NCBI RefSeq assembly: GCF_014489555.1
Contig: NZ_CP060784.1
Span: 4,552,501-4,616,500 of the forward strand
Length of the DNA stretch: 64,000 bases
Direction: 5' to 3'
Source: Hymenobacter qilianensis
GTDB lineage: Bacteria > Bacteroidota > Bacteroidia > Cytophagales > Hymenobacteraceae
The first letter of the stretch is position 1. Each line of letters begins with the position of its first letter. Positions 42,565-51,697 of the stretch are shown here, one piece after another. The notes beneath the pieces are model-generated. The model had not been told where the DNA came from. It was given only the letters and a program-made list of their open reading frames with translations, and did no database searches. Position numbers and translations under genes: made by a program.

Positions 42565-42733
42565 TGTAGAGACGCGTATTGGCTGTGCCGACCTTCGGTT
42601 CACGTCTCATCGTCGCGGTCGTTGTTTAGGCGAATTATGCGAACGGCGCGATGCCCATCGTTCACCGACTAGACGCGAACCGAAGGTCGGCACAGCCAAT
42701 ACGCGTCTCTACATGGCGCTGGGGGCTTTTTTA
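42565..42733. repeat. Family B palindrome joined to a terminator
   Basis: TGTAGAGACGCGTATTGGCT pairs with its complement over about 35 bp per arm (to 42713), including a private GTGCCGACCTTCGG segment. GCGCTGGGGGCTTTTTT then follows. It separates the convergent kinase and methyltransferase genes. Confidence 0.9.
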
Positions 42734-43742
42734 CTTGCGTATGCCTTCGATAATGCTGAACGGCGACCTGGTCGGCAGGATGCGGGTCAGCTCTAGGCCG
42801 GCCTTCCCGAACAGCTGACGGTACTCCGCTTCGGTCCGCTCGCAGCCGCGCAGGTACAGCAGCATCTGCAGGTCCAGAAACTTGCCGAAGGAAGGCTCGT
42901 TGCCTTCGGGCAGCACCATTTCCACCACCAGCACCTTGCCTTCCGGGTTCATCGCCTCGCGGCAGTTATTCAGAATGGTCAGGCTCTGCTCATCGTTCCA
43001 GTCGTGGATGATGTGCTTCATGATGTACGCATCGGCCCCTGCCGGCACTGAATCGAAAAAACTGCCCCCACCCGCTCGCAGCGGTCGGCTACGCCCTGCG
43101 ATTGTATCAGGTCGGCGGCAGCTTCCACGATGGCCGGCATGTCGTAGAGAATGCCCGCAGCCGGGGGTATTTTTTCAGAATAGAAGCCAGCAGCAAACCA
43201 TGTCCGCCGCCTACATCCACGATGGTAGAAAAGGCCGAAAAATCGTAGGCTTCCAGCACGGCGGCGCTGCTAAAGGCGCTGTTGCTGGACATGGCATCGT
43301 TGAACACCTTGCCGGCCTTCTCATTCTTCCAGAAATAATCGAAGGACGAGGTACCAAATACCTTGTCGAAGGCCGGCTCGCCGGTTTGCACGCTGTAGAG
43401 CAGCTCGGCCCAGGTTTGGTACTGAAAGTCGTTGGTCATCAGGGTTACGAAGGACCGCAGGCTGCCGGGCACGTCGCTCAGCAGCGACTCGGCCGGCGGC
43501 GTCAGGCGAAAACGCTTGTCTTCGTCTTCGGAGAATACGCCCACGCTGGCACAGGCCCGCAGCACCCGATACAGGGAGCGCTCGTGCGTGCTGGTAAGGC
43601 GGGACAGCTCGCCGGCGCTCTTGGGGCCGTCCTGCAGCAGATCGGCAATACCCAGCTCGGCGGCAACCCCTATAGCGCGGGAGGGCGCAAACCCAAACAT
43701 AACCTGCATGAGCTGAAGGGAAGGAGGTAGCTCTTGCGACAT
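42731..43742 (-). CDS. SAM-dependent O-methyltransferase, two frame breaks
   Basis: Three frames join into about 337 residues when one base is restored at G 43163-43167 (KKYPPAAGILYDMPAIVEAA) and at C 43065-43069 (ERVGGSFFDSVPAGADAY). The N-terminal dimerisation winged helix (ELGIADLLQDGPKSAGELSR) and the SAM motif TIVDVGGGHGLLL are followed by KHIIHDWNDE with the catalytic-region His. This is the plant-type O-methyltransferase family, also seen in bacterial secondary metabolism. Substrate unknown; no biosynthetic partners are adjacent. Confidence 0.87.
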
Positions 43743-43840
43743 AGATAGTTTACTTAAAGCATATCAGATAGTTAAGCGCAGTTTATAGTTTACTGGAAGG
43801 CTATAGCTCGAATTTGCCCCCCCAGAACGCTACTCTAATA

Positions 43841-43957
43841 TATTCTATTTATTCTATTTATTCTATTTATTCTATTTATTCTATTTATTCTATTTATTCT
43901 ATTTATTCTATTTATTCTATTTATTCTATTTATTCTATTTATTCTATTTATTCTATT
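43841..43957. repeat. Tandem repeat, 13 copies of a 9-bp unit
   Basis: TATTCTATT is repeated 13 times without a change over 117 bp. It lies in the 343-bp gap between the divergent O-methyltransferase and superoxide dismutase genes, 128 bp before the latter. The frame it opens (a Tyr-Ser-Ile chain) is not a gene. Confidence 0.97.
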
Positions 43958-44085
43958 CTTATTTATAAAGCTTTAGTCGCAATTTTTGCCCGTACGTTCT
44001 CGTACAAGCTTCATTATTTATAGGAAAACCAACGTTTGAATCACCTCCACCAGATCAGTAAACCCTCACTTTATCTACCACTACT

Positions 44086-44832
<747 letters not shown>

Positions 44833-44877
44833 ACCCTAGAACACAGCGTAAGACCTCCTTGGATTTACAAACACGAG

Positions 44878-44977
44878 GCGGTCATGCAGAGCAGCGCGAA
44901 GCATCTCGCTCGCGGTAGTGAGGTTAGAAATCCAGCGTCAGCACGCGAGATGCTTCGCGCTGCTCTGCATGACCGCC
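44878..44977. repeat. Family A dispersed palindrome
   Basis: GCGGTCATGCAGAGCAGCGC pairs with its complement, with private AGCAGCGCG in both arms. The centre GGTTAGAAATCC has drifted. It lies between convergent genes. Confidence 0.9.
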
Positions 44978-45021
44978 TTATTTATTACTCTAAGACTCAG
45001 TCATCTGCTTTTCGTTCTTTG

Positions 45022-46609: not shown

Positions 46610-48804
46610 ATGCGCCCTCTATTTACTCTGTTCCTTCTTTTCTCCTGCTTAGCGGCTCAAGCGCAGGCATTCAAACCCGAAGAAATTGCGCGCTGGCAGC
46701 GGCAAGCCAAGCAAGTAAATATCATCCGCGACCAGTGGGGCGTGCCGCACATCTATGGCAAAACTGACGCGGATGCCGTGTTCGGCCTGCTCTACGCCCA
46801 GTGCGAGGACGACTTCGCCCGCGTGGAGGAAAACTACCTCACCAACATCGGGCGCTTAGCAGAAGTAGAGGGCGAAACGGCTTTGTATAGTGATTTGCGC
46901 GCTAACCTCTTTTTGGACAGCACCCAGGCCATCAATATCTATAAAAAAAGCCCCCATGGATGAAGGAGCTGCTGAATGCCTTCGCCGACGGCACCAACTA
47001 TTACCTCTACACTCACCCCACCGTCAAGCCTAAGCTGCTCACGCGCTACCAGCCCTGGATGCCGCTTATGTTCAGCGAGGGCAGCATTGGTGGCAATATC
47101 AGCGTGGTGCCGCTGGAGCGTTTGAAAGCCTTTTATAGCCAGAAAAAATCAACTTCCTGGCAGCACCCTGATTTTGAGAAGCAAGACCGTGAACCCGTCG
47201 GCTCCAATGGATTTGCTATTGCTCCGGCCAAAAGTGCCAGCGGCCACGCCCTGCTGCTAATTAATCCGCACACGTCCTTCTACTTCCGGCCCGAAGTGCA
47301 GATGGTAAGCGAAGCCGGCCTGAATGCCTACGGTGCCGTTACGTGGGGGCAGTTTTTTGTATATCAGGGATTTAATCAGAACTGCGGCTGGATGCACACC
47401 TCCAGCCAGGCCGACTCCATGGATGAGTACCTGGAAACCATTGAGGAGAAAAATGGCAAGCTGTATTACAAGGTTGGCAAGAAGCGGCGCCCGGTGCAGG
47501 TCAAAAAGGTGTCGCTGGCTTATAAGCAGGGCAACCAGGTGCTGCGCAAGGAGTTCACTACTTACCGCACCCACCACGGCCCGGTCGTGGGTCAGCAGGC
47601 CGACAACCAATGGGTGACGGTGCGCATGATGGATACGCCGCTGGAAGCGCTGGAGCAGTCGTACCTGCGCACCAAAGCCACTGACTACGCCAGCTTCAAC
47701 GAGGTGATGAAGCTCAACGGCAACGCCACCAACAACACCGTTTTCGCCGATAGCAAGGGCAATATCGCCTACTGGCACGGCAACTTCATGCCCATCCGCG
47801 ACCCCCAGTTCGACTGGAGCCGCCCCGTTGATGGCAGCAATCCGCAAACTGAGTGGAAAGGCTTACACAAGGTAAACGAGCTAGTGCAGGTGCTCAACCC
47901 TGCCAGTGGCTGGATTCAAAACTGCAACTCCACCCCGTTTACCGTATCCGGCCCCAGCAGCCCGGCCAAGGATAAGTATGCCGCCTACATGGCTCCCGAC
48001 GCGGAAAACTACCGCGGCATCAATGCCGTGCGCGTGCTCAGCCGCCGGAAACTATACACGCTCGACACGCTCATTGCCGCCGCCAATGACCCATATCTGG
48101 CAGGGTTCGAGGAGTTAATTCCGGCCCTGGTAGCCGCTTATCAAACCCCGGCCGGCAAGGCCAGCACTGCCTCGAAGGCGGTGCCGGAAGCCATAGAGGT
48201 GCTGCGTACCTGGGACAAGAAATACGGCAAGACCTCCGTCGGGCAAACGCTGGCTATCTATTGGGCCGAGCGCATCCAGAAGCTAGCCCGCACCCGCGCC
48301 CTCCCCGACCAGCGCCTCGACAACCTGACCTTCACCGCCTTAGTCATTGAAAAAACGACGCCCCAGGAGAAGGTAGTCGCCCTGGCCGAAACCCTCGACG
48401 AGCTGACCCGCGACTTCGGCACCTGGAAAATGCCCTGGGGCGAAGTAAACCGCTTCCAACGCCTCACCGGCCAAATTCAGGAAGTGTACGATGACAGCAA
48501 GCCGAGCATTCCAGTGGCTTTCACCTCCTCGGCCTGGGGCTCCTTGGCCGCTTTCGGCGCGCGGGCCCAAACCGGCACCAAAAAGCGCTACGGCAACGTC
48601 GGCAACAGCTTCGTGGCTGTGGTAGAGTTCGGGCCGCGCATCAAGGCGCGCTCGGTGCTGGCGGGGGGTGAAAACAGCGACCCCAACTCGCCCCACTTCA
48701 CCGACCAAGCGACGATGTACGCGGAGCAGCGGTTCAAAGACGTGCTGTTTTATCCCGAAGATGTTCGCAAGAATGCCAAGAAGACCTATCACCCCGGCGA
48801 GTAG
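46610..48804 (+). CDS. Penicillin-acylase-family Ntn amidohydrolase, one frame break
   Basis: One base restored at C 46951-46955 gives INIYKKSPPWMKELLNAF and about 731 residues. The signal peptide is MRPLFTLFLLFSCLAAQAQA. The early NIIRDQWGVPHIYGKTDADA is the family N-terminus. The predicted autoprocessing nucleophile is the Ser of VGSNGFAIAP, as in related acylases, and GNATNNTVFADSKGNIAY follows. Such enzymes hydrolyse amide bonds of beta-lactam side chains, acyl-homoserine lactones or acyl peptides. The substrate cannot be told from sequence. Confidence 0.9.
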
Positions 48805-48998: not shown

Positions 48999-51697
48999 TT
49001 AATCAATCATAACATTGGCACCCGTCAAAGCCACGTTGGCTTGCAATACTTGCTTCGCGGCCAGCGCCGATTTCAGCGGCTGTCCGCCACCCACGAAAAC
49101 CTGCACTTGGCCGGCCTGTTCCATGCGCTCGGCTTTGTCATTCAGCAAGGATAACTGCCGGGGAGTGAGCGTGAACTGAATCGTCTTTTTCTCGCCGGCT
49201 TTGAGGTTTATCCGCTGAAAGCCTTCGAGCGCGTGCAGTGCCACGCGTCCTTTGGCATTGGGGTGTTTTACGTAAAGCTGTACTACCTCGTCGCCGGCGC
49301 GCTTGCCGGTGTTTTGCACTTCTACGCTTACCGTTACGGGTTGGCCGGTGGGGGCACTGGGGGGCATTTTTAGGGCGCTGTACTTGAAGGTGGTGTAGCT
49401 CAGGCCGTGGCCGAACGGATACAGCGGCGTGTCGCGGAAGTAACGGTAGGTGCGGCCTTCCATGTCGTAGTTATCGAAGGCGGGCAGCTGCTTTTCTGAT
49501 TTGTAGAACGTGACGGGAAGGCGGCCGGCGGGGTTGTAGTCGCCGAACAGCACATCGGCCAGGGCAGTGCCGGTGGCTTGGCCGCCGTACCAAGTGTTGA
49601 TGATGGCGGGAATGTTGGCGGCTTCCCACGGCACACCCAGGGCGCTGCCGGTCATCATAGCAAATACCACCGGCTTGCCTGATGACTTCAGCACCTTCAG
49701 CAGTTCGGTCTGTACTTTGGGCAGGGCAATACTGGTGCGGTCGCCGCCGCTGAAGCCTTCCACATCTACCTTCATTTCCTCACCTTCCAGACGGGGAGAA
49801 ATGCCCCCACGAAAATAATCGCGTCGGCGTTGCGCACTTGAGCCAGAATGTTCTTGGCGTTCATGGGTACAATGTGGGCACCGGCAAACTTGAGAATGGT
49901 ACGGCGGTCGGCCTGAAAGTATTCGAGCCTGATTTCCATCTTTTGACCCGCCACTACTTTCTGTTTGTGCTGGGTGGTTGATACGCCGCGGCTTTTCCAG
50001 TTGTCGAGCACCAGCTTATTGTCGATGAACAAGCGGTAGCCGTCGTCGCCGGTGATTTGGAAAGCCAGCTCTTCCGACTTTTCCGGGGTAAACGTAGTGG
50101 TGTAGCGGGCCGAGAAGTTCTCGGCCGGCAAGCCCGGCACCACTTCAATCTTTACGTTGGCCAGATAGCGGTCGAGGCCGGCTTCCTGGGTAGTAACTAT
50201 AGGCTGACCTTGCAGCTCGGTGCCTTTGAAGTACTCAGCCTTAAAGCCGGGCTGGCCGTTGCTGGTCAGGTTTTTATTGATGTCGAAGGTTTCATACACG
50301 ATATTGCTGGCGTAGTCAACTCCCTGGATGAAAGTTACTTCGGTGCCTTTGCCCACCTTAGCCCGAATGCCTTCGAGCGGGGTTACATTATCGGTCGGGA
50401 AGCCGTTATAGTTGCCGAGCTGCACGGCGTCATTGTCGGCGTTGGGGCCGAGCACAACTAGCTTCTTGATGTCTTTGCGAAGCGGCAGCGTGTTCTTGTC
50501 GTTTTTCAAGAGCACCAACGATTCGTGCGCCATTTGCAGGGCATGGGCCTGGTGGGGGCACTTTCCACCACGCTCATCGGAATCTGGGCGTACTTCACGC
50601 GCTCCGTGGGGTCGAACATGCCCAGCTGAAAGCGAATCTTATACAGGCGCTTCACCGACACGTCCAACTGCTGCTCGGTGATGAGCTTGCGCTGCACCGA
50701 TTCGAGCAGAGAGTTATAAGTAAAGAGCTTGCCGGTGGCGCATTCGAGGTCTGTGCCGTGGAGCACGGCGTTGGCAGCAGCGGTGGCCGCGTCGGGGTCG
50801 GTTTTGTGGTTTTGCCAGAAGTCGTTGATGCCGTCGCAGTCGGAGGTGACGTAGCCTGTGAACTTCCACTTATCGTAGAGAATCTCGTTCATGAGCTTGT
50901 CGCTGCCGCAGCAGGGCTGCCCGGCGTAGGCGTTATAAGCGCACATCACGCTGGCCACTTTCGCATCTACAATCAGGTCGCGGAAAGCTGGCAAATACGT
51001 GTCCCACAAGTCGTAGTCGCTGATTTTAGCATCGAATACGTGGCGCAATTGCTCGGGGCCGCTGTGCACGGCAAAGTGCTTGGCGCAGGCCGTTACTTTC
51101 AGATACTTCGGGTCGTCGCCCTGAAAGCCTTTTACCAAAGCCGAACCCAGCTGCCCGGTCAGGTACGGATCTTCGCCGTAGGTTTCCTGCCCCCGCCCCA
51201 GCGCGGGTCGCGGAAGATGTTAATGTTAGGCGTCCAGAACGTGAGACCCTGATAGATGCCCCGCTCGCCACGGCGGGCGTACTCGTGGTGCACAGCACGG
51301 GCTTCGTCGGAGGTGATGGTGGCCATTTTGAGCATGGCCTCGGTGTTGAACGTGGCCGCCAAGCCGATGGCCTGCGGAAACACCGTTGTTTTCATGCTCG
51401 TGCGGGCTACGCCGTGCAGGGCTTCGTTCCACCAGTTGTAAGCCGGAATGCCCAGTCGGTCGATGGCGGGCGAGGCGTTCAGCATCTGACTCACTTTTTC
51501 CTCCAGCGTCAGGCGACCGACCAGGTCATCTACCCGCTGATCAACGGGCAGATCGGGATTGCGAAACGGGAAGTCTTCGGGCTTGCTGGGGGCATTTCCT
51601 GAGCAGTAGCGGAGGCTGGAACAGTAGCAGTTTGCTGGCTTCCTTTATTGCACCCAGCAAGGGCTACCAGCGATACAACGATTAAGAGTTTCTTCAT
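48999..51697 (-). CDS. GH3 beta-glycosidase with PA14 domain, four frame breaks
   Basis: Five frames join into about 900 residues. Restored joins: G 51588-51592 (EMPPSKPEDFPFRNPDLPVD), C 51190-51194 (RWGGGQETYGEDPYL), G 50554-50558 (ESAPHQAHALQMAHESLVLL) and C 49804-49808 (FVGGISPRLEGEEMKVDVEG). It starts with a lipoprotein-like signal (MKKLLIVVSLVALAGCNKGS). GH3 N domain: KHFAVHSGPE and nucleophile Asp in YVTSDCDGIND. The GH3 C domain is interrupted by a PA14 module (ITGDDGYRLFIDNKLVLDNW) and followed by a fibronectin-III-like end. Resembles beta-glucosidases/xylosidases. With four breaks it is the most affected gene here, while an in-frame six-G run near 49364 is intact. Confidence 0.88.

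Follow-up and report, generated by a model that had tools for sequence, protein, structure and literature searches.

A perfect 9-bp tandem array between divergent O-methyltransferase and superoxide dismutase genes, most likely a young and tolerated spacer

A short repeat unit, present in many perfect head-to-tail copies between two divergent genes, raises the question of whether a change in the number of units alters the expression of either gene, or whether the array is simply tolerated by the region in which it is found. One such array is present in the 64-kb window (the whole stretch of DNA that was analysed). Comparison with related genomes suggests that it is a young array, grown by slippage in a conserved stretch, and that it is most likely a tolerated spacer and no true on/off switch (a probability of roughly 0.62). 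A role in switching either gene is possible but unproven.

The array and its flanking genes

The array consists of 13 error-free TATTCTATT units, each with 8 of its 9 bases A or T. Tandem Repeats Finder shows a period of 9, 13.0 copies, 100% matches and 0% indels, and the array is its sole row for the whole window at a score of 50 or more. The program and the sequence itself thus bear out the first-pass annotation, which had described a perfect 13 × 9-bp repeat. The same annotation placed the array between an O-methyltransferase (MTase) and a superoxide dismutase (SOD) in divergent orientation, and this agrees with the Pfam matches and the strands. The locus is composed of the following features:

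42731–43742, − strand (start at 43742): MTase, with Pfam matches to Dimerisation and Methyltransf_2; split in this assembly
43841–43957, no strand assigned: perfect tandem array, 13 × TATTCTATT; the − strand reads AATAGAATA
44086–44832, + strand: Fe/Mn SOD of 248 aa, with Pfam matches to Sod_Fe_N (1.1e-30) and Sod_Fe_C (4.8e-41)

The matches of the SOD to the NCBIfam Mn and Fe SOD models are below the cut-offs of these models. In our own reading, the N-terminal extension of the SOD looks like a putative export signal. A long inverted repeat is visible by eye just 3′ of the SOD gene (positions 44876–44978 of the window). G085, one of the related genomes described below, has a similar one after its SOD gene.

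The array is found within a TTG-started open frame at positions 43814–44023, and on the + strand it would be translated as (YSI)n. That the array is coding is nevertheless extremely improbable. The open frame has 69 codons, but a stop-free 9-base unit by itself keeps frames open, the frame over the array has no Pfam match, and in-frame stops are found between the array and both neighbour genes, 8 codons upstream of SOD and 7 upstream of MTase. Because of these stops, the array extends neither the SOD nor the MTase protein.

No hairpin or strand folding is predicted for the array (minimum free energy 0 on both strands), and a search of Rfam with positions 43500–44300 gave no match at gathering score. 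The lone Rfam match in this segment with an E-value of 1 or less, mir-589, has 22.6 bits versus a gathering score of 54.8 and is taken as a chance match.

The three-unit word has no second place in the genome, and a search with two units, allowing up to 2 mismatches, gave the array as the sole match in the genome. Three consecutive units are present in 1 of 120 genus genomes and in 1 of 204 family genomes, both times the genome analysed here. Of the viral contigs in the collection, 5 also contain them, in 3.4 to 7 copies. A repeat family shared with these contigs was considered, and the viral copies are taken to have grown independently, in AT-rich DNA.

All 120 genus genomes have an SOD match of some kind, and 57 have a strong one (E ≤2e-115, a cut that we chose; the next value is 1e-94). 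The upstream regions of all 57 were read. An array of at least 3 perfect copies that starts no more than 800 bp upstream of SOD is present in 1 of the 57, the genome of the window; the remaining 63 of the 120, with a more distant SOD match, are outside this count. At a Tandem Repeats Finder score of 40, repeats of about two copies (periods 12–21) are seen upstream of the 57 SOD genes at 5 other loci, and these were not counted as arrays. A scan of named genomes kept 80 relatives at 47–64% identity, none of them close, and was left out of the analysis.

Perfect arrays of any unit (at least 3 copies and at least 24 bp, periods 2–60) were sought in 800 kb of the same genome, sampled as 40 stretches of 20 kb, and one other was found. 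With the same criteria, none was found in 400 kb each of the relatives G061 and G085. The other array is an 11-mer, TTTGCGTTCAC, in 5.9 copies (L127:14962–15026; G000:C1:1264962–1265026). It begins 72 bases past a 335-codon frame that appears to be MoaA-like, judging by our own reading of its first residues. Three TTTGCGTTCAC units are found in 1 of 120 genus genomes, again the genome analysed here. In another species, two short perfect arrays, AGGCT × 6 and GGCTTAG × 4.3, adjoin one another right at the end of the SOD gene (L027:2244–2299).

The array site in related species

The MTase gene is next to SOD in 4 of the 57 strong-SOD genomes (tblastn, up to 1,500 bp upstream). The three relatives with this gene pair, G061, G085 and G063, display two imperfect 9-mers exactly at the place of the array. 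Each of these differs from TATTCTATT by one to three bases:

G061, array site: TATACAATT-AATTCTATT
G085, array site: TATACAAGT-TATTCTATC
G063, array site: TATACAATT-TATTCTTTT

In the relatives the 9-mers are followed by a conserved TTATTTATAAA-like word; in the window the 13 TATTCTATT units are followed by CTTATTTATAAA. The distance between the start codons of MTase and SOD is 343 bases in the window versus 225 in G061, 232 in G085 and 224 in G063. It should be noted that G032 (L016), whose SOD is 89% identical, has no MTase match upstream and was excluded from the four-species alignment.

The two 9-mers in the relatives make it most likely that slippage enlarged the array at its present site. 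Two adjacent imperfect 9-mers would have been the seed, already situated inside a conserved AT-rich stretch between MTase and SOD, and replication slippage on this seed may have produced a young array of the VNTR/minisatellite type. The simplest reading of the sequences would be that such a pair of 9-mers expanded where it stood, with a gain of 11 units (99 bp). From the four species on which this origin rests, we infer slippage as the mechanism, the direction of the change, and continued change in length.

The site of the array is well conserved. In an alignment of three or four related species only, of DNA that aligns easily where it is AT-rich, up to 27 of 36 columns around the array are identical in the three relatives when 11 units are left out (about 6 are predicted from composition alone), and 22 of 36 columns are identical at a separate peak that encompasses the SOD promoter candidate and leader (about 3 to 4 predicted). 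The stretch at the array site is the highest of the 36-column segments examined in the intergenic region; relative to expectation, the two peaks are nearly equal. The array appears to have opened inside one of these two conserved elements, parting its halves by 99 bp. In the three relatives the halves are directly continuous. In the window they are:

43830–43849, no strand assigned: left part of the conserved AT-rich block (CTACTCTAATATA...), which runs into the first unit; from the alignment with G061, G085 and G063
43949–43969, no strand assigned: right part of the block (the last unit and CTTATTTATAAA); from the alignment with the relatives

The block that is split by the array is probably regulatory. 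That the array is found where conservation in the region is highest speaks for a functional effect of some kind over pure neutrality.

The quality of the assembly bears on the copy number. In comparison with G061, 14 of the 36 window genes are split into different frames (e.g. 42731–43742, 46610–48804 and 48999–51697). The 49,306 aligned bases contain 96 one-base indels, a count that takes in true species differences and non-coding DNA, and 64 of these are losses in the window. Only 21 of the 96 are in runs of four or more, and assembly error is therefore a likely, not a proven, explanation. The completeness of the genome is 93.94, versus 99–100 in most relatives. Because the assembly is rich in indels, 13 is the assembly's count and may differ from the true number.

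The MTase gene is intact in G061, G085 and G063, with 337 codons, and is split in this assembly by two 1-bp losses in C runs, which are probable sequencing errors. The possibility that MTase is a pseudogene and that its promoter is relaxed for this reason was set aside in view of the many other split genes, which point to assembly errors.

An assembly of this kind might suggest an artefact in the number of copies or in a portion of the array itself. This is very unlikely, since small indel errors cannot make 13 identical 9-mers, and errors within the array would have left its units imperfect. In addition, the two-unit state in the relatives represents a natural seed for growth.

Promoter candidates and the effect of copy number

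The sequence TATAAT shows no enrichment upstream of G061 genes (10 sense versus 12 antisense), and therefore the Bacteroidota motif TAnnTTTG was used; according to the available text of PMC9723704, this is the sigma-A box described for Flavobacterium psychrophilum. TAnnTTTG occurs upstream of genes in G061 30 times in sense versus 13 times in antisense orientation (209 upstream stretches). Together with the gene content, the promoter motif agrees with an origin of the window in the Bacteroidota, possibly in Hymenobacter or a genus close to it. TTG-N17-23-TAnnTTTG occurs 6 versus 2 times, with no clear preferred spacing to TTG, and the −33 part is therefore weak. A search for E. coli-type sigma-70 promoters yielded 2 matches versus 1.3 expected from shuffles, which is not above chance; one of the matches is on the − strand at 43969–43941, over the right edge of the array. 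The candidates with the Bacteroidota motif are:

44031–44038, + strand: best SOD −7 candidate, AACGTTTG, 55 bases before the SOD start, with a weak −33; predicted
43981–43988, + strand: weaker −7-like word, AATTTTTG, whose −33 would adjoin the array edge; predicted
43842–43835, − strand: weak MTase −7 candidate, TATATTAG, with 5 of the 6 defined positions of TAnnTTTG; predicted

All 4 species compared have the SOD −7 candidate 54–55 bases ahead of the start codon. The word is AACGTTTG in the window, G085 and G063, and CACGTTTG in G061, each with 5 of 6 defined positions. Its score of 7/9 is tied by other words in the scan, and the case for it therefore rests on its conserved place. Counterparts of AATTTTTG are TAATTTTT in G085 and TAATTTTC in G063, at 105–106 bases before the start; none is listed for G061.

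The MTase −7 candidate touches the first unit, and two of its bases are part of the array. Among the − strand words of the window it has the top score, which two others share. TATATTAG is also found in G061, with a lower score, and is readable in G085; G063 has TATATTAA at this place. In G085 and G063 the candidate does not reach the top lists.

Immediately 5′ of the SOD −7 candidate, at positions 44016–44029 and at the same place in G061, G085 and G063, an inverted-repeat-like word, GTTT-N6-AAAC, is seen by eye. It is a perfect palindrome in G063 and degenerate in the window, and is a possible operator candidate.

It had been proposed in the first-pass annotation that a change in copy number would rotate promoter elements relative to each other. 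This does not apply to the best SOD promoter candidate, which is 73 bp away from the array and has all of its parts on one side of it, so that its own elements cannot rotate mutually. All units are identical, and thus a gain or loss of units leaves the sequence adjoining either promoter unchanged. Copy number would therefore have consequences only where elements on either side of the array interact, through distance and phase. Any effect would come from the separation and helical phasing of the two block halves, or would fall on the MTase promoter at the array edge; an effect on the core SOD promoter would be less likely than either. By arithmetic, at 10.5 bp per turn, one unit is 0.86 turn (a phase change of about −0.14 turn) and the phase returns every 7 units. 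With 11 extra units the halves are about 0.43 turn off the phase in the relatives.

Two readings give copy number a role. In one, which is possible though rather unlikely, the array would tune spacing in the manner of the nadA gene of Neisseria meningitidis: a regulator or the RNA polymerase alpha subunit would bind on both sides of the array, copy number would set their distance and phase, and graded or switching expression of MTase, SOD or both would follow. The division of a block whose halves adjoin in three relatives is in keeping with this, and with the phase shift per unit, effects should recur every 7 units. A precedent is given in the available text of PMC2791445, where TAAA repeats located distal to its promoter give nadA quasi-periodic transcript levels, via differential spacing of NadR operators. 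At the present locus, however, the operator and regulator are only hypothetical, and the core SOD promoter candidate does not span the array. The latter is found in one species only, so that no long-term selection is visible, and variation in copy number within the species is only supposed, with one genome per species.

A doubtful alternative is that the units are repeated AT-rich sites, i.e. an UP-like element or sites for nucleoid proteins, with an effect that is graded by the number of sites and independent of phase. The base composition of the unit and the position of the array next to the weak MTase promoter candidate are consistent with this, as is the contact of the alpha subunit and IHF with the AT-rich repeat region of nadA (available text of PMC2791445). 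For an UP element, however, only the sites near the promoter would count, and these would remain unchanged while several units remain.

A wider proposal is equally doubtful. The array may have made a conserved control element, shared by MTase and SOD, tunable in length, with its halves in or out of phase at a period of 7 units; clone-mates of the host, probably an environmental member of the Bacteroidota, would then differ in oxidative-stress or methyltransferase expression. Among open-licence PMC papers, none was found on phase variation in Hymenobacter or on a phase-variable promoter VNTR in Bacteroidetes. A young array that is tolerated as a spacer is retained as the preferred reading.

Relation to known repeat loci

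The array has the short, near-perfect unit and the many head-to-tail copies of a VNTR, or simple sequence repeat. Copy number differs among relatives, between species only (13 versus two imperfect units in three relatives). VNTRs with 9-bp units are known from Francisella typing. Like the VNTR/SSR loci used for bacterial typing, this is a perfect short tandem array, intergenic and in one species, here from a single genome. The kind of locus, a VNTR-type repeat in a regulatory region, is already known, and the present array is a new example.

The array resembles the nadA repeats as described in the available text cited above in that perfect short AT-rich repeats are situated upstream of a core promoter (the SOD promoter here being a candidate), and in that the unit is not a whole helical turn, so that flanking elements would move with copy number. 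Unlike the TAAA repeats of nadA, the present array has a 9-bp unit and is flanked by two genes in divergent orientation. The NadR operators of nadA are known, whereas the present locus is known from the sequence of one genome alone.

In the hmwA genes of Haemophilus influenzae, ATCTTTC repeats are situated downstream of the functional P2, between it and P1, and more copies lead to lower expression (available text of PMC8262952). A pyrimidine-rich short unit and a large number of copies are shared with the present array, and so would be a place in a promoter region if the predicted promoters are real, but the array is upstream of the SOD promoter candidate, in contrast to the location of the hmwA repeats downstream of P2.

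The array shows the birth of a repeat locus, with its likely seed, two imperfect 9-mers, directly readable in related species. If it is invariant or without effect, it is an ordinary young minisatellite. If it varies, it would provide a clean natural test of helical phasing, in which each unit shifts the phase by one seventh of a turn inside a conserved and probably regulatory block, and the array-free state is kept in three relatives.
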